Source: Rhodococcus sp. HNM0563
GTDB taxonomy: Bacteria; Actinomycetota; Actinomycetes; Mycobacteriales; Mycobacteriaceae
Direction: 5' to 3'
NCBI RefSeq assembly: GCF_012726195.1
Contig: NZ_JAASAF010000006.1
Coordinates: 248,001 to 312,000, forward strand
Length of the DNA stretch: 64,000 bases
The first letter of the stretch is position 1, and each line of letters opens with the position of its first letter. Position numbers and translations under genes: made by a program. Below, one piece after another: positions 3,870 through 15,017 of this stretch. Under the pieces are notes generated by a model. The model had not been told where the DNA came from. It did no database searches and saw only the letters and a program-made list of their open reading frames with translations.

Positions 3870-4142
3870 ATGCTCGGACTCGGAATTATCGGCTGGATCA
3901 TCATCGGCGGCCTGGCCGGCTGGATCGGTAGCAAAATCATGGGCACCGACGCCCAACAGGGCATTCTCCTCAACATCGTCGTCGGCATCATCGGTGGCCT
4001 GCTCGGCGGCTTCCTGCTGAATCTGCTTGGAGTCGACGTCGAGGGTGGCGGACTGATCTTCAGCTTCCTGACGTGCCTGCTCGGCGCGGTTATTCTGCTG
4101 TTCCTTGTCAAGGCAGTTACGGGGCGCGGCGTTCGCCGTTGA
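3870..4142 (+). CDS. GlsB/YeaQ/YmgE family stress-response membrane protein
   Basis: The protein has 90 residues from the ATG at 3870; an in-frame ATG 24 bases earlier lacks a ribosome site, whereas GAGAAGGGA sits 9 bases before this one. It has three hydrophobic helices rich in Gly: GLGIIGWIIIGGLAGWIGSK, then GILLNIVVGIIGGLLGGFLL and FLTCLLGAVILLFLV. This is the pattern of the transglycosylase-associated GlsB/YeaQ family, small inner-membrane proteins induced by general stress. The preceding SigF/SigB-like promoter agrees with that. Molecular role unknown. Confidence 0.85.
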   Translation: MLGLGIIGWIIIGGLAGWIGSKIMGTDAQQGILLNIVVGIIGGLLGGFLLNLLGVDVEGGGLIFSFLTCLLGAVILLFLVKAVTGRGVRR

Positions 4143-4160
4143 CCCCTGCTGCCTGAATCT

Positions 4161-4191
4161 CGCCGTGGCCGACTCGATGTCGGCCACGGCG
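4161..4191. terminator. Bidirectional terminator hairpin
   Basis: Perfect 13-bp arms CGCCGTGGCCGAC and GTCGGCCACGGCG surround a 5-base loop in the short gap between two convergent genes. It has no long U-run, which is common for actinobacterial terminators, and can serve both strands. Confidence 0.75.
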
Positions 4192-4212
4192 ATGTCGGTC
4201 GGTCGCTCGGTC

Positions 4213-4740
4213 TCAGGGGACGACGTCGATGGTGCCCTGGCATACGGAGTTCTTGGTGTTGATGAACCACCATCCTCCGCCGGTCTGGATGGTCACGGTG
4301 AAATCGACAGTGCCCGTCCCCGTAAACGTGTGGTTGATCGGGATACCGGGGTTCGGGCTCCAGGCCGCCTGATCGCTGACGCTGCGCCCGGACTCGCCCG
4401 TGTTCCGGTTGGTCCAGTCGACGAGTACCTGTGTCCCGTACCAGTTGGGTCCGATGGCCGAGAGGATGCCACCCGTCGGACGAGGTAGATCGTTGCCGCC
4501 GCTGAGCAGAAGTGCAGGCTCCAGTTGGTCACCTCCCGGGGGAAGTGATCCGCCGGACGATGCGCGGACGAACCACGTGAACGACGGCGACCACGGAAGC
4601 GGATTCGCGCTCGTGCACGTCATGTCGGTGGACGTCGGTGCAGCGTTCGCAACACCTCCTCCACCGACAACCATGGCTGCACCCATTCCGACCGCGGTGA
4701 GCACCGAAGCACCCATACGACGCATATTCTGCTTACTCAT
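4213..4740 (-). CDS. Secreted protein, paralogue of the 1557-2090 gene
   Basis: The start MSKQNMRRMG was chosen because GGAGGAG lies 6 bases before it and a classical signal peptide follows: a basic n-region, the hydrophobic segment SVLTAVGMGAAMVVGGGG, and cleavage after ANA. The mature part is about 140 residues, with a block DWTNRNTGESGRSVS shared with the other secreted gene nearby. It ends CQGTIDVVP. The protein is predicted to leave the cell or lodge in the mycolate envelope. No enzymatic motif was seen. The longest frame extends 68 codons further upstream but crosses a probable promoter region. Confidence 0.7.
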   Translation of the reverse strand: MSKQNMRRMGASVLTAVGMGAAMVVGGGGVANAAPTSTDMTCTSANPLPWSPSFTWFVRASSGGSLPPGGDQLEPALLLSGGNDLPRPTGGILSAIGPNWYGTQVLVDWTNRNTGESGRSVSDQAAWSPNPGIPINHTFTGTGTVDFTVTIQTGGGWWFINTKNSVCQGTIDVVP

Positions 4741-4961
4741 GACGACTCCTCCGATATCTCGATCCGCATACGACCTGTCTATCGAGGGCGGGATGTCATT
4801 CGTGACCGATACCTCAGCGAATATGTATATGTCACAACTGAAGATGCTCATCACCGAGAGTGGCCTGGTGACGGATCCTGTCCAGCGGGAGCCTTCGTAT
4901 GCCCGCTCGGCGCACGCGGTTAGTGTCCGGCACATCGGATCCACGCGGAAGGGACAGTGAT

Positions 4962-5444
4962 ATGCCGACCGTCGAAGAGCGCCTCGATCGCCTCGAAGCT
5001 CTCGAACAGATCAAGATGCTCAAGCATCGGTATTTCCGGGCGTGTGACGCCAAGGATCCCGAAGCCATGCGCGCGTGTTTCATCGCGCGGGGAGCCGACA
5101 TCTACTACGGTCCCGCGCTCGGTAGCTTCGACGACGCCGACGGGCTGGTCGACATCTACTCCAGAATTGCCCTGCAGCGCGTCGATGACCGGTACGTCAT
5201 CCTCGACATGCACCACGGCATGCACCCCAGCATCCAGCTCACCGGTCCGACTACCGCCACCGGCGCGTGGACGCTGCGTTTCCGGCAGGTGGATCTGAAC
5301 GCCCGCACCGAACGGGTCACCGCCCTCGACTACGACGACGACTACGTGGTCGAGAACGGCGAATGGAAAGTCGCCAGATGCCACGTGAAGGTGCTGTGGT
5401 CGATCGAACGTCCCCTGACAGACGATGTGAAAGTGGTCCAGTAG
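4962..5444 (+). CDS. SnoaL/NTF2-like protein
   Basis: This is a 160-residue protein. The N-terminal helix EERLDRLEALEQIKMLKHRYFRACDAKD is followed by a cone-shaped beta sheet pattern typical of SnoaL_4/NTF2-like proteins (polyketide cyclases, dehydratases, scytalone-dehydratase relatives). The ATG at 4962 was chosen over an upstream in-frame start because the conserved helix begins there. It ends one base before the SDR gene, so the two form an operon and may act on the same small molecule. The substrate is unknown. The D and H pattern (YVILDMHHGMHPSI) resembles the pocket region of the family. Confidence 0.8.
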   Translation: MPTVEERLDRLEALEQIKMLKHRYFRACDAKDPEAMRACFIARGADIYYGPALGSFDDADGLVDIYSRIALQRVDDRYVILDMHHGMHPSIQLTGPTTATGAWTLRFRQVDLNARTERVTALDYDDDYVVENGEWKVARCHVKVLWSIERPLTDDVKVVQ

Positions 5445-5445
5445 C

Positions 5446-6282
5446 ATGCCTGAGCGCAAGATCGCCCTCGTCACCGGAGCGAGCCGCAGTGTCGGTAGAG
5501 GGGTCGCGTGTGCGCTCGGTTCGGCCGGGTGGACGGTCTACGTCACGGCCCGCGGACCCGTCGGCGTGGACGGCCCGCTCGACCGGACCGCCGCCATGGT
5601 CACCGAACGAGGCGGACGCGGTATCGCTGTACAGTGCGATCACCTGGACGACAAACAGATCCAGGATCTGTTCACGCGAATCGCGGACGAACAAAGCGAC
5701 CGTCTCGACCTGCTGGTGAACAACGTATGGGCGAGCCCGAAAGGGTTTGCCGGCTTCAGTGAGCCGTTCTGGAAGCGGCCGGTGGACGACTGGGACAGCC
5801 TCATCGGTGTGGGTCTGAGAGCTCATTACGTCGCGTCGGTCGAGGCTGCCAAGCTCATGGTGCCTCGTGGAAGTGGCATGATCGTCAACATCTCCTCCTT
5901 CGGCACCCGTGGGTACCTGCATTCGGTGCTGTACGGGATGTCGAAGGCGGGTCTGGACAAGATGGTGGCCGACATGGCCGTCGACCTGCGCGGCACCGGC
6001 GTGACCGCATTGTCGTTGTGGCCGGGACTGGTGAAGAACGAAGCGATGCTGGCACGCGGCCTCGACAACTTCCAGGGATTCCCACTCGCCAACGCCGAGA
6101 CCCCGGAGTTCATCGGACGGGTCATCGCTGCGTTGGCTACCGATCCGAAGGTGAACGAACGCAGTGGATCCACTCTGATCACAGCCGAGGCCGCGTTGGA
6201 TTACGGCGTCGTGGACATCGAAGGAAACCAGCCGGATTCGCATCGGAACATTTTCGGGGGAGGCCCGGTGTTCGGAGGCTGA
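5446..6282 (+). CDS. Short-chain dehydrogenase/reductase
   Basis: This is a 278-residue Rossmann-fold oxidoreductase. The cofactor motif TGASRSVGRG is at residues 11-20, the NNVWAS stretch is at about 89, the catalytic Ser is in NISSFG near 148 and the YGMSK catalytic Tyr/Lys pair near 163. The Arg/Asn after the first strand fits NADP(H) or NAD(H); specificity cannot be fixed. It resembles DHRS1-type SDRs, which have this long insertion after the NN motif. It starts one base after the NTF2-like gene, implying a two-gene operon. Confidence 0.9.
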   Translation: MPERKIALVTGASRSVGRGVACALGSAGWTVYVTARGPVGVDGPLDRTAAMVTERGGRGIAVQCDHLDDKQIQDLFTRIADEQSDRLDLLVNNVWASPKGFAGFSEPFWKRPVDDWDSLIGVGLRAHYVASVEAAKLMVPRGSGMIVNISSFGTRGYLHSVLYGMSKAGLDKMVADMAVDLRGTGVTALSLWPGLVKNEAMLARGLDNFQGFPLANAETPEFIGRVIAALATDPKVNERSGSTLITAEAALDYGVVDIEGNQPDSHRNIFGGGPVFGG

Positions 6283-7105: not shown

Positions 7106-7123
7106 TGCTCAGAATCCGCACAG
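7106..7123 (+). promoter_or_regulatory. Candidate SARP box upstream of precursor A
   Basis: TGCTCAG (7106-7112) and CGCACAG (7117-7123) are direct heptamers separated by 4 bases (11-bp period), 65 bases before the precursor start. SARP activators bind this architecture next to the -35 region. An almost identical copy precedes precursor B, and a SARP gene lies in the same cluster. Confidence 0.6.
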
Positions 7124-7145
7124 TGCCTTCCGCGAACGTGACCCT

Positions 7146-7164
7146 GTGCCGGAACGTCCGGCAC
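7146..7164 (+). promoter_or_regulatory. Inverted repeat in the precursor A leader
   Basis: GTGCCGG and CCGGCAC (7146-7152 and 7158-7164) flank a 5-base spacer, 24 bases ahead of the start codon. The counterpart before precursor B keeps the arms but changes the spacer. This suggests a conserved RNA hairpin or an operator. Confidence 0.5.
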
Positions 7165-7188
7165 GCACGCGACGCGAGGAGATCTGAC

Positions 7189-7353
7189 ATGCGCACATTC
7201 GTCATCGACACAATTCCGGTGGAGGGCGTGGAACTGGACGAATCACGGCTTGCTCGGATTGTCGGCGGCCGGCCCACGAGTCGGGGTGACAGGGAGCGGA
7301 CCGGCTGCACCCCCGATAGCCCTATCCAAGGGGACGATCCAATCCTGCCTTGA
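7189..7353 (+). CDS. RiPP precursor peptide A (double-glycine leader)
   Basis: This 54-residue peptide is preceded by a GAGGAGA ribosome site. Residues 1-27 are a leader ending LARIVGG, the Gly-Gly site cut by C39-peptidase exporters. The leader has the acidic helix GVELDESRLA and shares 17 of 27 positions with precursor B. The predicted core (28-54) is hydrophilic, with Thr, Ser, Asp, Glu and Arg, one Cys, and PDSPIQGDDP near the end. These are residue types that ATP-grasp ligases join through ester or amide links. It is followed by a strong hairpin terminator. No known RiPP family was recognised from the core. Confidence 0.8.
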   Translation: MRTFVIDTIPVEGVELDESRLARIVGGRPTSRGDRERTGCTPDSPIQGDDPILP

Positions 7354-7373
7354 GTCCGGAATACCGGTCACTC

Positions 7374-7413
7374 GACTCGGCGAGGGACGCACAATTGTGT
7401 CCCTCGCCGAGTC
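7374..7413 (+). terminator. Strong hairpin terminator after precursor A
   Basis: Perfect 15-bp arms GACTCGGCGAGGGAC (7374-7388) and GTCCCTCGCCGAGTC (7399-7413) surround a 10-base loop that holds a small palindrome, ACAATTGT. It begins 21 bases after the precursor A stop and separates the two precursor transcription units. Confidence 0.8.
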
Positions 7414-7449
7414 GTGTCCAGCAGCAGTGTATCTGCTGCGCTAATTCAT

Positions 7450-7467
7450 TGCTCAGAGTCTGCACAG
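7450..7467 (+). promoter_or_regulatory. Candidate SARP box upstream of precursor B
   Basis: TGCTCAG (7450-7456) and TGCACAG (7461-7467) are direct heptamers with a 4-base spacer, 63 bases before the precursor B start. Position, spacing and sequence match the copy at 7106-7123. Confidence 0.65.
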
Positions 7468-7491
7468 TGGCCCTCGTGACGATATCCGTGC

Positions 7492-7508
7492 TGCCGGGAG
7501 GTCCGGCA
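7492..7508 (+). promoter_or_regulatory. Inverted repeat in the precursor B leader
   Basis: TGCCGG (7492-7497) and CCGGCA (7503-7508) flank GAGGT, 22 bases before the start codon. The arms match those of the element at 7146-7164. Confidence 0.45.
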
Positions 7509-7530
7509 CGGAACACACGAGGAGAGCCGA

Positions 7531-7707
7531 ATGAGCAAGTTCGCAATCGACACGATTTCCGCGGCCGGCGCCGAACTGGACGAGTCACACCTGGCCGGTG
7601 TCGTGGGCGGCATGCCGAAAATCTGTCAACAACCGACCGTGCTCAAATTGGAATCGGGTAACGCGCCGGATCGGACCCTTCCCGGCGACCCGCGGAGCCG
7701 ATGCTGA
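7531..7707 (+). CDS. RiPP precursor peptide B (double-glycine leader)
   Basis: This 58-residue peptide follows a GAGGAGAG ribosome site. The leader (1-27) has the same length as that of precursor A and keeps F-x-IDTI, ELDES and LAxVVGG. The core (28-58) differs almost completely, carries two Cys (one near the front in KICQQ, one as the last residue) and has APDRTLPGDP, which echoes PDSPIQGDDP of precursor A. This is the expected picture of one maturation system acting on two divergent products. Cleavage after the second Gly by the C39 exporter is inferred. Confidence 0.8.
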   Translation: MSKFAIDTISAAGAELDESHLAGVVGGMPKICQQPTVLKLESGNAPDRTLPGDPRSRC

Positions 7708-7764
7708 GAACCACGCAGGCGAACTGAACTGTGTCCCCCTTGGGGGATCCGTAGCGGTCTTTGG

Positions 7765-7790
7765 CCCGGGGCACCACAGTGTGCCCCGGG
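7765..7790 (+). terminator. Hairpin between precursor B and the maturase
   Basis: CCCGGGGCAC and GTGCCCCGGG (10-bp perfect arms) flank a 6-base loop. A partial terminator here would yield more precursor than enzyme mRNA, a common feature of RiPP operons. It lies just ahead of the GGAGGG ribosome site of the ATP-grasp gene. Confidence 0.6.
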
Positions 7791-7812
7791 TTGTCCTGGA
7801 GGGTTTCGTCCC

Positions 7813-8826
7813 ATGCCTCATGTTCTCGTCCTTACTCAACCCGGTGATTTGCACGCGGACGCCGTGATCGAACGGCTGATCCAGCGCCAGGCGAGGTACA
7901 CAATCTTCGATCCGGGTGACTTCCCATCCAACGCAGCAATGTCTGTGTCGTACGACCGGTCCGGACTCATCGGACGCACGCTTCTCGGGTCGGGGCGTCC
8001 TCTTGATCTCAATGCTGTCGACAGCATCTGGTGCCGCCGACCCAGCCCGACCACCCCAGCGCCCGAAATCGAGGATCCCATTGCACAAGAATGCGTTCGG
8101 GACGAAGGCGGTACGTTCTCCGCGTACATATGGGACAGTCTGGATTGCCTTTCGGTACCTGGAAAAATGCGGTCCATACGACATGCATCATGCAAGCCTG
8201 AACAACTGTCTCGTGCGGGTGCGCTCGGTTTGGAGATACCTCCGACACTCGTCACGACGGATCCGGAAGAGTTTCTGGATTTCTGGGATCACCATGACGG
8301 ACAAATCATCACGAAGCCCTTGGACAATCCCAGTCTTGGCGTGGGCGGACGCAGCTTCGTTCGATTCTCTGAGGTACCTACCACTATGGATCTCGCTTCG
8401 GCCGATGCGATCCGTTTCTGCCCGGTGATCACGCAGGCCTACGTACCCAAACTCGTCGAACTGCGGGTGACAGTCGTCGGTGATCGTGCGTTTGCGGTTG
8501 AAATCGACAGCCAGCGAAGCAATCATGCTCGCGGCGACTGGCGCAAGTACGACTCCACGCAAGGCCTGTACGCAGTTCACTCGCTGCCGGACGAAATAGC
8601 CGAGCGCTGCGTTCGACTCGTGACCGAGTTCGACCTGAACTACGGCGCACTGGATCTGATCTTCACACCCGACGGGCGCTATGTCTTCCTAGAGATCAAT
8701 CCAGGCGGCCAATGGCTGTGGCTCGAAGAAGCGACAGGTATCCCGATTGCGGACGCGGTAGCAGACCTGCTGGTGTCCTCCGACGAACGGTTTTCACGAT
8801 CCTCGACGAACGGAGCTTTCCGATGA
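7813..8826 (+). CDS. ATP-grasp ribosomal peptide maturase (MvdC/MvdD-like)
   Basis: This is a 337-residue ligase of the ATP-grasp superfamily. The ATP-binding Lys is in IITKPL near residue 166, and the metal-binding end motif DGRYVFLEINPGGQWLWLE lies at about 288-306. The NPxGQWxWLE form is typical of the maturases that make side-chain ester or amide crosslinks (macrolactones/macrolactams) in microviridin-type graspetides. The N-terminal domain (1-120) is expected to bind the leader. It starts after GGAGGG and overlaps the next gene by ATGA. Codon third positions are visibly less GC-rich than in the genes around it, a sign of possible transfer. Confidence 0.85.
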   Translation: MPHVLVLTQPGDLHADAVIERLIQRQARYTIFDPGDFPSNAAMSVSYDRSGLIGRTLLGSGRPLDLNAVDSIWCRRPSPTTPAPEIEDPIAQECVRDEGGTFSAYIWDSLDCLSVPGKMRSIRHASCKPEQLSRAGALGLEIPPTLVTTDPEEFLDFWDHHDGQIITKPLDNPSLGVGGRSFVRFSEVPTTMDLASADAIRFCPVITQAYVPKLVELRVTVVGDRAFAVEIDSQRSNHARGDWRKYDSTQGLYAVHSLPDEIAERCVRLVTEFDLNYGALDLIFTPDGRYVFLEINPGGQWLWLEEATGIPIADAVADLLVSSDERFSRSSTNGAFR

Positions 8827-9938
8827 CCCCCACCATGCCGTCGCAAGACCATTGCGTCGACGCGAGTCTACTGTCGGCGCTCCTGGATGTGATCCGCCTG
8901 AAGAACAGTCCATTCGGCGACGAGCAAGCGCACTCATCGGAAGCCCTCCGTGTCCTACGTGAGAAGAATCCCGAAGTCCGGATGCGGCTCGTGCGACACG
9001 TGGAACCGTTCGACGAATCGTCCCAGAGCGCACTGCTCATCACCGACACGGAGGGAAACGTGACAACGGTGTCGTGGTCGCCGCCCTCGACTGTGCCGTG
9101 GCCGCTTCGAGGAGCACGACGAGCCGGTGAATCGACCCTGTTGTCCGTCGACGGGGAGACACTCACGGTCGGCGAAACCATTCTGCATCTCGACGGGATG
9201 TGGGATCGTCCGGACCTCCTCACCGGACTCATCGATGCTTGCGTGATACGTATCGAGCTCGAGGAAGCCCCTGTCGAGTTGACCGACGCACAGATGCAGG
9301 ACGCTCTCGACGCGTTCCGCCGGGCGCGAGGTCTGCTCACTCGTCACGAAACCGAGGCATGGATGGCGCAGAATCATCTGAGCCCAATCATGTTCGAGCG
9401 AACAGTCCGGCACGAAGCCGAGCTTGCGAGCCTTCGTCGTCGCGTGGTCGCCGATCGTGCGTCTGCGTGGCTGCGCGAGCATGGAGAGACCCTCGACCGT
9501 GCGCGTATCGCGCGCGCTGTCTTCCCGGACCGTGCAGAGGCACGCGAGTTCGCGGCACGGGTTGCCGACGTTCATACCTACGAGGCGGATGACGCGATCC
9601 GTTACTTTGCAGGCGAACTGGGGCTTGTCGTAGCCGACGGTCGCGGGAAGGCGGAATTCTGCGACGTCGGGCGCGGCGATCTTGACGGCGAACTCGCAAA
9701 TCTGATTTTCGCTGCGGAGCCGGGGACGGTGATGGCAGCCGAGGTGAGCTATGGCGAATGGGAGGTTGTGCAGGTCCTCGCCGTGTATCGAACGCGGAAC
9801 GACGCCGCTGCTCTGCACATCGTCGAGCGTCGACTGTTCGACGAGTGGCTTGCCGAGCGCAGGCGCGCCGCGCGTGTCGAGTGGTTCTGGGGAGAGGCCG
9901 AGAAGACCGATCGCGTGACGGCGGGCATGGCGTCATGA
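8823..9938 (+). CDS. Peptide maturation protein, PpiC/SurA-like
   Basis: This is a 371-residue protein translationally coupled to the maturase (ATGA overlap). The first 150 residues have no fold I recognise. Residues about 155-260 are helical and rich in Arg/Ala, like the chaperone part of SurA or PpiC proteins. Residues about 265-345 (from RYFAGELGLVV to WEVVQVLAVY) resemble a parvulin rotamase domain with the ELANLIFAAEPGTV segment. I recall a family of putative peptide maturation system proteins with this layout next to RiPP maturases. It has no signal peptide, so it probably acts in the cytoplasm as a precursor chaperone or leader-binding partner. Function unproven. Confidence 0.6.
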   Translation: MTPTMPSQDHCVDASLLSALLDVIRLKNSPFGDEQAHSSEALRVLREKNPEVRMRLVRHVEPFDESSQSALLITDTEGNVTTVSWSPPSTVPWPLRGARRAGESTLLSVDGETLTVGETILHLDGMWDRPDLLTGLIDACVIRIELEEAPVELTDAQMQDALDAFRRARGLLTRHETEAWMAQNHLSPIMFERTVRHEAELASLRRRVVADRASAWLREHGETLDRARIARAVFPDRAEAREFAARVADVHTYEADDAIRYFAGELGLVVADGRGKAEFCDVGRGDLDGELANLIFAAEPGTVMAAEVSYGEWEVVQVLAVYRTRNDAAALHIVERRLFDEWLAERRRAARVEWFWGEAEKTDRVTAGMAS

Positions 9939-9951
9939 CAGGGGCAAAGTC

Positions 9952-12102
9952 GTGACGCGCAGGGTTCGGTTGCGACACCAGTCGGGGATCTCGGACTGCG
10001 GTGCAGCATGCCTGGCCATGATTCTCGACTTCTACGGTGCACCGATGCCGGTCAACGACGTGGCGGACAACCTTGCAGTCGGGCGCGACGGGACGACGGC
10101 GCTCGCACTGGTTCAGGTTGCCCGCGACTACGGTCTGGACGTGCGCGCGTTCGGCCGGCCCGCCGAGTCGATCGCCGACGGACACACGAGGTTGCCGGCC
10201 GTAGTGCATTGGGATCACAACCATTTCGTCGTTGTCGACCGTGCGACGGCGCGATACGTGGTGGTGGTGGATCCGAGTCGGGGACGGCAGCGCCTGTCGC
10301 ACACTGATTTCGCGGAGCGGTACTCGGGTGTGGTGCTCGAGTTCGGTGCGGGCGACATATCGTCGAGAACGCGGCAGGTACGGCACCGCGATACCCGCTG
10401 GCGGCGAGACTTCCTCGGACTCGTGTGGCGGGGCAACCGCGCATCGTTTGCCGGGGTCCTGAGTGCAGCGGTGATTCTGCAGATCGTCGGTGTCATAGTC
10501 CCTTTGCTCACCGCAATGTTCATCGACAGGGTCATTCCCGAGTCCGATTTCGGGCTCCTGGGCATCCTTGCGATTGTGGTCGTGGGTATCGCCTTCGTAC
10601 TCCTTGCTCTGGGGGCACTGCGTACCGTGGTCATCGCTCGGATCCGTCGGCGGGTCGATGCCGTGCTCACCGGTTATTCGGTCGAGCGACTGTTCGCACT
10701 GCCGTTCACGTACTTCATGCGACGGGGCACCAACGACGTTGCTCAACGCATCGGCGGTATCAGTACAATTCGTGATCTGTTCACCGAGAGGGTTGTGGCT
10801 GCTCTGCTCGACGGTCCACTTGCCCTCACCTATGTCGCAATAGTGATGTGGTGGGCACCGAGCGTCGGGGTCGGACTGCTGGCACTGACAGTGGTGCAGG
10901 CGTTGCTGATCGGCGTTGTGCATCGACGAGTTGTCGATCTCTTGCAACGTGAGGCTGCGACGGCGGCCGAAGCGGAGGGCACGCTCATCGAGAGTATTCG
11001 CGGTGTCGAGACGGTGAAGGCGTCGGGAACCGAGGCTGTGGTGATTGCCCGGTGGAAGCGATTGTTCGAACATGCTCTCGCCGTGTCGGTCCGCAGTTCG
11101 CTCGTGTCGGGACTGGTCGACGCCGCACAGGCGGCTTTGCGTGCGGTTGCGCCCGCGGTGCTCCTGTTCGTCGGGGCGGTTCATGTGGTGAGCGGCAGGC
11201 TTTCTCTCGGTCAGCTGATTGCGGTCAACGGGATGGCAGTGGTGGCGCTCGGATGCGTGACGTCGTTGCTCACACTCGTGCAGTATCTGCAGTCCGCTGC
11301 GGCATATGCACGGCGCCTTCAGGACATCCTCGAATCGGATGTGGAACAGGAAGGTCTCGACGTAACTACGGCGCCGCAACTTTCGGGAGCGATCCGGCTT
11401 CGGGGTGTCGGGTTTCGTTACGGTCCGAGGTCCCCGTGGGTACTCCGCGGCATCGAGTGCGATATTCCGGCGGGCACCACAGTCGCGTTGGTGGGGCGGT
11501 CGGGTTCGGGGAAGAGCACGCTCGCGCGCCTACTGCTCGGGTTGTACGTCCCAGAGGAAGGCACCGTTCTCTACGACGGACTCGACGCGCGGTGCTTGGA
11601 GGCGCGGTCACTGCGTGCACAGTTCGGCGTGGTGACACAGGACAGCACCCTGTTCACCGGGAGCATCGCTGACAACATTGCTACGGGCAATCCCGATGCG
11701 CCGTTCACGGATATCGTGCACGCGGCCTCTCTCGCGCAGATCCACGAGGATGTTGTTGCGCTGCCGATGGGCTACGACACGGTTCTCCGCGAGGGAAGTG
11801 GTCTCTCCGGTGGGCAGCAGCAGCGCGTGGCGATAGCTCGTGCACTCTTGACTCGACCTCGGGTGTTGTTGTTCGACGAGGCGACGAGCGCCTTGGATTC
11901 CATGACCGAAGCTGCGGTGGTAACCGGACTCAGGCAGCTGCGCCAGACCCGCATCGTCATCGCACATCGCTTGTCGACGGTGCGCACCGCCGACCTGATC
12001 TTGGTGCTCGAGGCAGGCAGGGTCGTCGAACGCGGCAGCCACGCACAGCTGCTCGAGCGCCAGGGGATCTATGCAGGGATGTGTGCGGAATCAGGGCGGT
12101 AA
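9952..12102 (+). CDS. Peptidase-containing ABC transporter (C39, leader-cleaving exporter)
   Basis: This is a 716-residue PCAT in one chain. The C39 peptidase domain (1-130) has Gln10, catalytic Cys16 in SDCGAAC, His near 88 in WDHNHFVVV, and an Asp in VVDPSRG. An exporter membrane domain follows (about 160-430, five to six helices). The nucleotide-binding domain (about 465-715) has Walker A GRSGSGKST, signature LSGGQQQR, Walker B VLLFDEATSALD and a switch His in IAHRLS. The family cuts after Gly-Gly and exports the core peptide; both precursors here end their leaders in VGG. The GTG at 9952 follows AGGGGC; the nearby ATG at 9935 runs into a stop. Confidence 0.9.
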   Translation: MTRRVRLRHQSGISDCGAACLAMILDFYGAPMPVNDVADNLAVGRDGTTALALVQVARDYGLDVRAFGRPAESIADGHTRLPAVVHWDHNHFVVVDRATARYVVVVDPSRGRQRLSHTDFAERYSGVVLEFGAGDISSRTRQVRHRDTRWRRDFLGLVWRGNRASFAGVLSAAVILQIVGVIVPLLTAMFIDRVIPESDFGLLGILAIVVVGIAFVLLALGALRTVVIARIRRRVDAVLTGYSVERLFALPFTYFMRRGTNDVAQRIGGISTIRDLFTERVVAALLDGPLALTYVAIVMWWAPSVGVGLLALTVVQALLIGVVHRRVVDLLQREAATAAEAEGTLIESIRGVETVKASGTEAVVIARWKRLFEHALAVSVRSSLVSGLVDAAQAALRAVAPAVLLFVGAVHVVSGRLSLGQLIAVNGMAVVALGCVTSLLTLVQYLQSAAAYARRLQDILESDVEQEGLDVTTAPQLSGAIRLRGVGFRYGPRSPWVLRGIECDIPAGTTVALVGRSGSGKSTLARLLLGLYVPEEGTVLYDGLDARCLEARSLRAQFGVVTQDSTLFTGSIADNIATGNPDAPFTDIVHAASLAQIHEDVVALPMGYDTVLREGSGLSGGQQQRVAIARALLTRPRVLLFDEATSALDSMTEAAVVTGLRQLRQTRIVIAHRLSTVRTADLILVLEAGRVVERGSHAQLLERQGIYAGMCAESGR

Positions 12103-12158
12103 CCTCGAGGTCTGCAGGTCCCCGGAAGTGGGGCCGTGACCGTTCGGGGGGATGTCAC

Positions 12159-15017
12159 GTGGGCTCGGTACCTGCACGGATCACCGTCTGTGTTCTCGGC
12201 CCGGTCACGGCGTTCCGTGACGGTGTGTCGGTCGATCTCGGCGGACCACGTCAACGCGCCCTGCTCGCTTCACTTGCGGTCGCGGCGCCGCACGCGGTGA
12301 GTGCGGCGCAGCTTCTCGCCGATGTGTGGCACGACGTTCCGGCGCCGACGGCGAACGCACTGCATTTCGCCGTGTCGAAGCTGCGGCGTCATCTCGATCC
12401 TCTGCGTGGCCGCGGGCAGCACGGTCCGGTTGTGCGCAGCGGATCGCACTATGCATTGCGGGTCGCTGAACTGGACTCGGCCCGATTCGATGCTCTTGTG
12501 AGGGAGGCCCACGGTGTTCGCGCCGGATCGGCGCCGTCTGCTCCCGACGATGCCGCAGTGCTTCTCAACGAGGCGCTCGGGCTGTGGAGGGGCGAACCGT
12601 ATCAGGACACTGCACACCTCGCCGGTATCGTTCCCGAACGGACACGACTGGACGGGCTGTACCGCGACGCATCGTGTGCACTCGTCGACATCGACCTCTC
12701 GCGCGGACGCGCCCAGGAGGCCCTCCGTACCGCGGAGGCTCTCGTAAATCGGTATCCGCTCGACGAGAACGCGTGGGCGTTGCTGGCGCGTGCCATGTAT
12801 CTGAGCGGTCGTCAGGCCGACTCGCTTGCCGCGATTCGGACGCTGCGGCGGACACTGATGGACGAGCTCGGTGTCGATCCAGGTGCGCTCATCGTGGAAC
12901 TCGAGCGAAAGATCCTCTCGCACGAGGTCGTGGATGATGCGGTGCCGGTGCCGCCAGCGCCGGCGCCCGAGGCCGCAGTGATCACCGATGAGCCGCCGAA
13001 GATGCCTCCGGCCCTGCCTGTTTCTCGCAGTCGGTTGATCGGACGTGCGGGTGACCTGTCGCGGGTGCCGGAACTGCTGGGCAAGCACGCTCTCGTCACC
13101 CTCTTCGGCCCGGGCGGAGTCGGGAAGACGCGCCTTGCCCTCGATGTGGCCGCAGGTGTGCGAATCGGCGACGGCACCTGGTTCGTAGACCTTGCCGGAG
13201 TCGTCGACGAGTCGTCGATCGTTGTGACCGTGGCGCAGACACTCGGTGTGCCGAGCGTGGACACTCCGGAGCAACTCGCCGAGCTGATCGGCTCACGCAC
13301 GACCTATCTCATTCTGGACAATTGTGAGCACCTCGTCGACGCAGCGGCACACCTCGTGTCGGTGCTTCTCACGCAGTGCCCGCACGTGCGCATTCTTGCC
13401 ACCAGTCGGGAATTGTTGGACGTGGACGGCGAATTCGGATACGAGGTGAGGCCTCTCGATCACGATTCTGCTGAAGAACTGTTCGCTGATCGCGCCGCTT
13501 CATTCGATTCGAGCTGGACACTGATGGACTCGGATCGCGTATCGGTACACAGGATCTGTGAAGGCCTCGACGGGCTTCCGCTTGCGCTCGAACTCGCCGC
13601 TGCACAATTGTGTGTGCTGTCCGAAGAGCAGATCGCCGATGGGTTGACCGATCGGTTCACTCTGCTCACCGAAGGTCCGAGACGTCTCGGAGCACGCCGA
13701 CGCAGTCTGATGGACACTGTCGGCTGGAGTTATCGGTCACTCGATGACACAGCGGCTTCGGCGTTGCGTGCACTGTCGGTGTTCGCCGGAAGTTTCGACA
13801 TCCACGGAGCTGCGGCCTTGCTCGGCGAGACCGAGCCGCTTCGCGCGGTCGAGACCGTACGCGCATTGGTGCGGCGATCGTTGCTGTCGGTGGTACCCGG
13901 TACCCGGACCCGGCGATATGTGATGCTGCAGACGATAAAACAATTTGCAGCACAACAAATGCTGCCTGACGAGCGCGAGCGCATTGCGTCTGAATATTAC
14001 GCCTGGGTGGTCCGCAGAGCTACCGCCCTGGCCGCCGAACTGCGTGGGTCCGGTGCGCGAAATGCAGTGTCCGAGCTCTTCGCAGACAGCGCGGAGCATC
14101 GAGCAGCGCTGACCGCAGCGGTCGACCGGGGCGACTCCCATTACGTTCTCGAATTGTCGGGTGCGCTGTACTGGTTCTGGTACCGGCAAGGCAATGTGTC
14201 GGAAGGGCTGAGGTTCTTGCGATTCGGGATCGACGGTGTCGACCGGCATCCGATTGTGCCGAAAGCGGCGCATCTCGGCAGGGCGCTCATGGGCACGGCA
14301 CTCCTGACCGATCTCACCGGCGATTCCGAATCCGCCCTGCACCACAGTGAACGGGCGTGGTCGATACTCCATGAGGCCGGCGATGCAGCGGAGATCGCCT
14401 ACGCAGATTCCCTGCGGGCGTACTACCGAACGGTGTGCGGCGACCACGGTGGGGCCGTAGGCATCGTGCAGCGAAGGCTCGAAGTCGCAGGTTCGCTCGG
14501 TGACGACTGGATCGCGGCTTCACTACTGATGGTGCTGGGGATAGCCCAGCGGGGTGGTGGTGACAGTGCGGCACCGGAGACGTTGCGGACATCCGTCGAC
14601 GTCGGCCGCCGGTGCGGTTATCGATGGGTACCGATCTGTTCGCTGTGGGCGCTGGCCAAGATCGCCGCGGACTCCAACGACCACCGTCGAGGTCTGGCAC
14701 TCGCACGTGAGATCCTCCCGATTCTCGAAGAGGACGCCGAAGTCACCGGGTGGATCGTCACCATGCACACCGCGGCAGCAGCCCTCGCGCAAGCAGGACG
14801 GACAGCAGACGCGGCGCGTGTCCTCGGAGCTGCACGTGCGCACGGTGAACGCGCGGGCGTGCAGGCCGACCTACTCGATCCGTACGGTCCCCAGGAACAT
14901 GCGGCGATGACAGCGGCGGCACGCACCGGAACCTTCGACGCGTACTGCGCCGAAGGTTCCGGTCTCACCCGTGAGGAAGTGAATGCTCTGATCATGGCTA
15001 CGTCGCCATCGCGCTGA
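12159..15017 (+). CDS. SARP/AfsR-type transcriptional regulator
   Basis: This 952-residue regulator is read from the GTG at 12159, which follows GGGGGG at 7 bases; the longer frame would overlap the exporter without a ribosome site. It has an OmpR-type winged helix (about 5-95, GGPRQRALLASLAV and ALHFAVSKLRRHL), a BTAD domain (about 100-245), an NB-ARC-like ATPase with Walker A FGPGGVGKT near 316 and ILDNCEHL near 388, then TPR-like helices to the end. AfsR-type SARPs activate secondary-metabolite genes by binding direct heptamer repeats. Such repeats occur before both precursor genes here, making this the likely pathway switch. Confidence 0.9.
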   Translation: MGSVPARITVCVLGPVTAFRDGVSVDLGGPRQRALLASLAVAAPHAVSAAQLLADVWHDVPAPTANALHFAVSKLRRHLDPLRGRGQHGPVVRSGSHYALRVAELDSARFDALVREAHGVRAGSAPSAPDDAAVLLNEALGLWRGEPYQDTAHLAGIVPERTRLDGLYRDASCALVDIDLSRGRAQEALRTAEALVNRYPLDENAWALLARAMYLSGRQADSLAAIRTLRRTLMDELGVDPGALIVELERKILSHEVVDDAVPVPPAPAPEAAVITDEPPKMPPALPVSRSRLIGRAGDLSRVPELLGKHALVTLFGPGGVGKTRLALDVAAGVRIGDGTWFVDLAGVVDESSIVVTVAQTLGVPSVDTPEQLAELIGSRTTYLILDNCEHLVDAAAHLVSVLLTQCPHVRILATSRELLDVDGEFGYEVRPLDHDSAEELFADRAASFDSSWTLMDSDRVSVHRICEGLDGLPLALELAAAQLCVLSEEQIADGLTDRFTLLTEGPRRLGARRRSLMDTVGWSYRSLDDTAASALRALSVFAGSFDIHGAAALLGETEPLRAVETVRALVRRSLLSVVPGTRTRRYVMLQTIKQFAAQQMLPDERERIASEYYAWVVRRATALAAELRGSGARNAVSELFADSAEHRAALTAAVDRGDSHYVLELSGALYWFWYRQGNVSEGLRFLRFGIDGVDRHPIVPKAAHLGRALMGTALLTDLTGDSESALHHSERAWSILHEAGDAAEIAYADSLRAYYRTVCGDHGGAVGIVQRRLEVAGSLGDDWIAASLLMVLGIAQRGGGDSAAPETLRTSVDVGRRCGYRWVPICSLWALAKIAADSNDHRRGLALAREILPILEEDAEVTGWIVTMHTAAAALAQAGRTADAARVLGAARAHGERAGVQADLLDPYGPQEHAAMTAAARTGTFDAYCAEGSGLTREEVNALIMATSPSR
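14925..14963 (+). repeat. 13-bp inverted repeat inside the SARP gene end
   Basis: ACCGGAACCTTCG (14925-14937) pairs perfectly with CGAAGGTTCCGGT (14951-14963). It lies in the last 30 codons of the regulator and could fold as a terminator-like hairpin within the coding sequence. Confidence 0.5.

Follow-up and report, generated by a model that had tools for sequence, protein, structure and literature searches.

The stretch of Rhodococcus sp. HNM0563 DNA analysed here (contig NZ_JAASAF010000006.1, positions 248,001 to 312,000; 64,000 nucleotides in all, hereafter the window) carries a densely packed group of genes on the + strand. From sequence comparison, and with a probability of roughly 0.78, we read this group as a graspetide cluster of the rosaritide (group 21) kind, in which the ligase depends on a partner protein. 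The genes encode, in order, precursor peptide A, precursor peptide B, an ATP-grasp peptide ligase, a PpiC-like protein, a one-chain C39-peptidase exporter and a Streptomyces antibiotic regulatory protein (SARP). An earlier interpretation made from the letters alone (the sequence-only reading) had placed all of them on one strand, where indeed they lie, from 7189 to 15017. The span it gave, 7106..15017, encloses every part, although position 7106 is the first base of a promoter repeat and no gene starts there.

Precursor A (7189..7353, +, 54 aa) bears the core RPTSRGDRERTGCTPDSPIQGDDPILP after IVGG, and precursor B (7531..7707, +, 58 aa) the core MPKICQQPTVLKLESGNAPDRTLPGDPRSRC after VVGG. Unmodified, the cores would have masses of 2935.421 Da (A) and 3406.727 Da (B). 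Both have a GAGGAG ribosome site 6-7 nucleotides 5' of the ATG. The leaders thus end in VGG, as had been claimed, but to call them near-identical overstates a likeness of 17 out of 27 residues, counted by eye. With 32.7 bits precursor B exceeds the NCBIfam cut-off of 32 for TIGR04497, a family named "putative ATP-grasp target RiPP" (ribosomally synthesized and post-translationally modified peptide); precursor A, whose relatives include P0007-P0009, scores 31.2 bits. A Pfam search with four precursors gave no match at E values up to 10, and PF27893 is listed for all seven matches in a protein search for precursor relatives. Between the two genes lies an inverted repeat with 14-nucleotide arms (7374-7413) and no clear T-run, which may separate two transcripts.

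The ATP-grasp gene (7813..8826, +) encodes a putative graspetide synthetase resembling MirB of the rosaritide cluster. Its top NCBIfam matches are TIGR04187 (the best, at 251 bits), MvdD and MvdC, and its closest solved structure is PDB 5ig8 (E 1.5e-51), with 5ig9 also matching; we take both structures to be microviridin-type ligases. The enzyme hence matches peptide-ligase families, not a non-peptide one, which agrees with the graspetide type proposed earlier. A 4-base ATGA overlap joins it to the gene of the PpiC-like protein (8823..9938, +), a MirC-like member of TIGR04500 (312.5 bits, cut-off 180) and the one match to that family in the assembly. The AlphaFold2 model of this protein is moderately sure (mean predicted local distance difference test score 77.5, predicted template modelling score 0.55). 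Foldseek with the model returned the PrsA, SurA and Cj1289 (3rgc) folds at low template modelling scores, and the TIGR04500 profile aligns with the chaperone and parvulin parts of SurA, suggesting a SurA/PrsA-like fold.

This combination of genes has a characterised counterpart in the rosaritide cluster mirABCD of Micromonospora rosaria, assigned to graspetide group 21 (Carter et al. 2026, PMC13097080). According to the accessible part of that study, which counts 21,584 predicted graspetides, MirA, MirB and MirC have been reconstituted. The rings require both MirB and MirC, which copurify, and the TIGR04500 protein MirC is an obligatory partner of the synthetase; rosaritide itself carries three esters (S8-D22, S9-D26, T11-D24) in a core of the form SSxT...DxDxD. 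Makarova et al. (2022, PMC8939145) also include TIGR04500 among the families tied to ATP-grasp loci, in the portion available. The machinery of the window is therefore known, and since TIGR04497 and TIGR04500 are moreover curated families, we reject the proposal that the system is undescribed. As in mirABCD, a precursor with a predicted site for cutting by the exporter, an ATP-grasp enzyme (in the window with TIGR04187 as its best match), a TIGR04500 partner and a peptidase-containing exporter share one cluster. In contrast, the window has two precursors, whose unrelated cores lack SSxT...DxDxD. It also has operator-like repeats and a SARP; none of the four mir genes named in the accessible text encodes one. 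The 5ig8 and 5ig9 enzymes belong to the same ATP-grasp sequence family, but the window differs in its TIGR04500 partner and in its leader, which is unlike the PFFARFL type of microviridin-type precursors (PMC8939145, accessible part).

Matches over the TIGR04500 cut-off came from 6 of 151 relatives; in a family draw they came from 7 of 401 genomes, and in a class draw from 15 of 394. These three sets overlap and include the genome of the window. With profiles built from the window proteins we annotated 34 loci (the window, L011, L012, L014, L015, L017 and L051-L078), comprising all places found over the TIGR04500 cut-off plus L078 below it; two under-cut-off places above 130 bits, in genomes G609 and G475, were left out. 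Because the loci were chosen for TIGR04500, the counts of co-occurrence start from that gene. The ATP-grasp gene adjoins it in 32 of the 34, and a C39 exporter scores above 290 bits in 29. Precursors with the common leader number 44 and are found in 28 of the 34 loci, at least two per locus in 12 of those 28; small open reading frames with the same leader are thus conserved beside the TIGR04500 gene, and the gene set is more than a chance arrangement.

The closest synthetases outline how the window relates to rosaritide-like loci. The window ATP-grasp protein is 54-57% identical to those of L012 (R. aetherivorans DSM 44752), L014, L051 and L052, which likewise have TIGR04500 and a C39 exporter and, in L051 and L052, a SARP, though a divergent one. 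Unlike the window, these four have a single precursor, the core of which is rosaritide-like (SSK[TV]ID...TDxDF); the L014 locus ends at a contig end. In the synthetase tree (32 rows from 35 envelopes, three fragments of the L015 gene being left out) the window pair of rows joins the L012, L014, L051 and L052 clade with a support of 91/98, unstarred by the program's rule. The L017 synthetase, 44% identical to that of the window (E 8e-81 by local BLAST with a database size set by us), sits apart from this clade on a long branch. For comparison, the network that defines the rosaritide group joins synthetases at an alignment score of 70. The core of the L017 locus, which came from the same search as the others, has S8, S9, T11, D13, D14, I15, P16, R20, P21, D22, T23, D24 and D26 at the rosaritide positions, with S25 replaced by T. 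As L017 lies elsewhere, the rosaritide-like cores do not form one clade on the tree. The ELR motif of the window enzyme, in place of DFR, was considered as an oddity of the ligase and dismissed, since 5ig8 and 5ig9 have ELR at the same place; of the 33 TIGR04500-linked ligase rows that have letters at this point, 31 also read ELR, the exceptions being L012 (EVR) and L072 (DLR).

Turning to the cores, A recurs in other Rhodococcus, and its consensus in five sequences (the window, L011, which equals P0007, L015, P0008 and P0009) is R.D..RTGC.PD, then 5 to 7 residues, then DDP[IL], with the gap put after PD by eye, one residue later than MAFFT sets it. Apart from T11, C13 and the acids D7, D16, D22 and D23 are kept. 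The core B of the window recurs in P0013 and P0014 (C.QPTVL..[ED]SG..PD.TLPGDPRS.C). The locus of Rhodococcus sp. SMB37 (L011) shares with the window the flanking genes, gene order, a core A homologue, the SARP and promoter repeats, but its core B is of another sequence class (ETCQPEGPDVIVQG) behind a similar leader, a type also found in P0010-P0012. P0011 unites the two: its leader is nearly identical to that of P0002 (window 7531-7707; MSKFAIDTISAAGAELDESHLA..VGG) and its core, unrelated, is of the SMB37 type. The core of P0011 looks exchanged behind a fixed leader, and we take leader and core to evolve separately because of this junction. The claim that the cores fall outside the known graspetide pattern holds when they are judged against the characterised rosaritide pattern, and ring patterns may perhaps be new as well, given the unfamiliar core sequences of both peptides.

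Behind the common leader we distinguish six kinds of core: the rosaritide-like SSK[TV]ID...TDxDF; a related SSxV...D.D type; PPGxC; GC....DD with its paralogues; a short, Cys-free form (SWKIGGKPAEWVIS); and the paired A/B cores of Rhodococcus. When these six and the label 'none' are mapped on the 32-row synthetase tree, seven changes are needed against a minimum of six, and none of 200 shuffles is as low; the classes were assigned by eye after reading the cores, some by their Cys, and near-copies among the rows favour a low count. Core class appears largely to follow the synthetase tree. Separately, in another family, second precursors with [ST]G[CS]Y....C.[YW]DDI cores occur in L067 (3889-4044), L069 (3589-3744), L070 (9146-9292) and L073 (9028-9174). 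They resemble the TGC.PD...DDP[IL] part of the Rhodococcus core A, and the two may represent one wider core type.

Downstream of the partner gene, the one-chain ATP-binding cassette exporter (9952..12102, +) shows Peptidase_C39 (PF03412, 99.8 bits), membrane (PF00664) and ATPase (PF00005) domains. Together with the VGG leaders it fits cleavage after GG on export, as had been predicted. The AfsR-type SARP (about 12081..15017, +, start codon uncertain) has a DNA-binding domain (Trans_reg_C) and BTAD over the Pfam cut-offs, and weak NB-ARC and TPR_16 matches under them. Its profile matches at over 1300 bits in 6 of the 34 loci, window included, and at 312-389 bits in three more. SARP operators are described as heptamers with 4-bp spacers (PMC3367932, PMC5930380, accessible parts). 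Such repeats stand in both precursor promoters as candidate operators: TGCTCAG-aatc-CGCACAG (7106..7123, +), from -83 of precursor A, and TGCTCAG-agtc-TGCACAG (7450..7467, +), from -81 of precursor B, the heptamers of the latter agreeing in 6 of 7 positions.

Across nine upstream regions from the window, L011, L015, L012, L051 and L052, all mutually related in sequence, repeats with at least 6 of 7 matches occur at 11-bp spacing in eight; no other spacing between 8 and 30 gives more than three. The figure becomes seven of eight without L012, which joined the SARP set after its repeat had been seen and in which no SARP was found. The other 35 precursors have such a repeat at 11 bp in 11 cases and at 12 bp in 10. 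The narrow motif TGCTCAGNNNNNGCWCRG is confined to the two precursor promoters in genomes G000 and G001, and G005 (75% complete) has one strict site and one with a mismatch. With the operator layout present in front of each precursor gene, SARP control of the two, already suggested by the sequence-only reading, is plausible. A literature search for graspetides and Streptomyces antibiotic regulatory proteins together found nothing. As for L012, a perfect heptamer repeat (GCTAAGC) spaced by 11 bp lies upstream of 7680, at the R. aetherivorans precursor, and the SARP profile had no match in the 19-kb locus.

Taken together, the locus most likely makes, under SARP control, two peptides that are cyclised and secreted and whose core types have not been characterised so far. 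What was observed directly is gene content and order, the family matches, the repeats and how far leaders and cores are conserved; all binding steps are inferred, as is the whole chemistry of A and B down to the choice of residues that are linked. The SARP would activate both precursor promoters through the heptamer direct repeats. The TIGR04500 protein would bind the ATP-grasp enzyme and help to present the shared leader, probably through its N-domain. The ligase would then activate core Asp/Glu side chains as acyl phosphates, the chemistry of the graspetide ligase family, and these would be closed on Ser/Thr (or Lys) side chains with the loss of 18 Da per ring. Finally, the exporter would cut after GG and secrete two different cyclised cores. 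The sequence-only reading is in this respect partly supported, namely in ligase type, export and SARP control.

Several results weigh against this interpretation. Three proteins fall short of family thresholds: precursor A lies just under the TIGR04497 cut-off, the top NCBIfam matches of the ATP-grasp protein are each under their own cut-offs (350 bits for TIGR04187), and the best NCBIfam match of the exporter, TIGR03796, reaches 539 bits with a cut-off of 853. The synthetase comparison rests on L017 and other loci in place of MirB. None of the six cores of the window, L011 and L015 has the rosaritide pattern SS.[TV]...D.D, and T11 is the sole invariant hydroxyl residue of core A in the five sequences, which makes the three esters of rosaritide improbable for this peptide. 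Regarding regulation, the heptamers of the site at 7106, in front of window precursor A, agree in 5 of 7 positions, and the operator motif was derived from the very sites that it explains. The loose form of the motif is not enriched genome-wide over its reversed control (26 against 43 in G000, 21 against 50 in G001 and 13 against 37 in G005).

Other explanations concern the bond that is made and the number of true substrates. The ATP-grasp enzyme might make a bond other than an intramolecular ester or amide, for example a thioester through the conserved core Cys, or add an amino acid to the peptide as some RimK-type ligases do. In support, its similarity to the RimK family amounts to 49 bits, and Cys is present in every A/B core from Rhodococcus (6 of 6), every PPGxC core (15 of 15, of which 13 are distinct) and every GC..DD core (9 of 9, of which 8 are distinct), being rarer elsewhere (1 of 5 rosaritide-type cores and none of 9 in the other two classes), with the reservation that Cys helped to define some of the classes. 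Nevertheless, the best matches by far are graspetide ligases, in NCBIfam as in PDB, and acids are kept in the A cores and window-type B cores, as expected of graspetide acceptors; we consider a different bond improbable. Equally improbable in our view is that one peptide alone is the true substrate and the other a decaying or diverging copy. In its favour, core B is almost wholly different between the window and the SMB37 locus while the leader is kept, and between L011 and L015 it shows one synonymous and three amino-acid changes. Core A, however, differs between the same two loci by seven synonymous and two amino-acid changes, the window-type and SMB37-type B cores are each kept (in P0013/P0014 and P0010-P0012, respectively), and promoter repeats stand at both precursors in three Rhodococcus loci, though weakest at window A.

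A further possibility is that the PpiC-like protein is a true prolyl isomerase acting on Pro-rich cores. Such a role would suit the several prolines of both cores and a protein that resembles SurA/PrsA and PpiC domains in fold and in profile. Parvulins possess two conserved histidines with a catalytic role, and in the partner alignment (22 rows of 26 hits, the partial or short P0025, P0035, P0039 and P0040 being left out) two of the 22 relatives (P0034, P0038) have a His near the first of these places, which also speaks for an isomerase. Against it, both SurA histidines (LSHIL, GFHIL) stand opposite non-His residues in the alignment with SurA, and neither parvulin strand of the window protein contains a His. 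MirC has likewise been described in print as a chaperone-like partner and not an isomerase; it is required for ring formation itself, in complex with MirB (PMC13097080, accessible part). Isomerase activity is thus highly improbable as the function here. A bolder form of the rosaritide-type reading would have one MirB/MirC-type complex read only the common leader and cyclise, within one cell, two unrelated cores, each with an unseen ring connectivity, the invariant Cys of core A and the Cys pair of core B entering a linkage or joining both peptides as a two-component product; this we regard as rather unlikely.

Under the rosaritide-type reading, gene set and logic are already known and, as far as sequence tells, the cores are new. 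That a graspetide cannot form without the TIGR04500 helper is a recent finding, made for one product. Judging from the window locus, and from the range of cores that accompany this leader and synthetase family, a single enzyme-helper architecture seems to take cores of very different kinds. How core and ring pattern are chosen could well be asked of a pair whose synthetases are related but whose cores are not, such as the window and the R. aetherivorans type. The presence of two peptides in one locus, behind repeats that look like SARP operators, also offers a handle to switch production on.

Inverted repeats (GTGCCGGAACGTCCGGCAC and similar, found by eye) lie just 5' of the ribosome sites in the window (7146-7164 and 7486-7511), and the same kind precedes precursors in L011, L015, L012, L014, L051 and L052. 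A 5' hairpin was not upheld as a common feature, being strong in some loci only: z scores against mononucleotide shuffles are -6.9 (L011 A) and -5.7 (L015 A), and -0.9 and -1.2 in the window.

The genomic place of the cluster was compared in the window, L011, L015, L012, G004, G017 and L080; G001 and G015 belong to one genus group with the window genome. In L015 the ATP-grasp (7272-8379, -) and C39 exporter (3988-6278, -) genes appear split over several frames, which in this 75% complete draft of about 950 contigs may be due to sequencing errors or to decay. None of the window flanks is found within the 19 kb of L012. ClpN-like and esterase genes flank the cluster in the window, L011 and L015. 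The same two genes are about 1 kb apart in G004 and G017, with no cluster match between them, so that the cluster behaves as an accessory block. In L080 a lipoprotein-like open reading frame occupies the space between these flanks.

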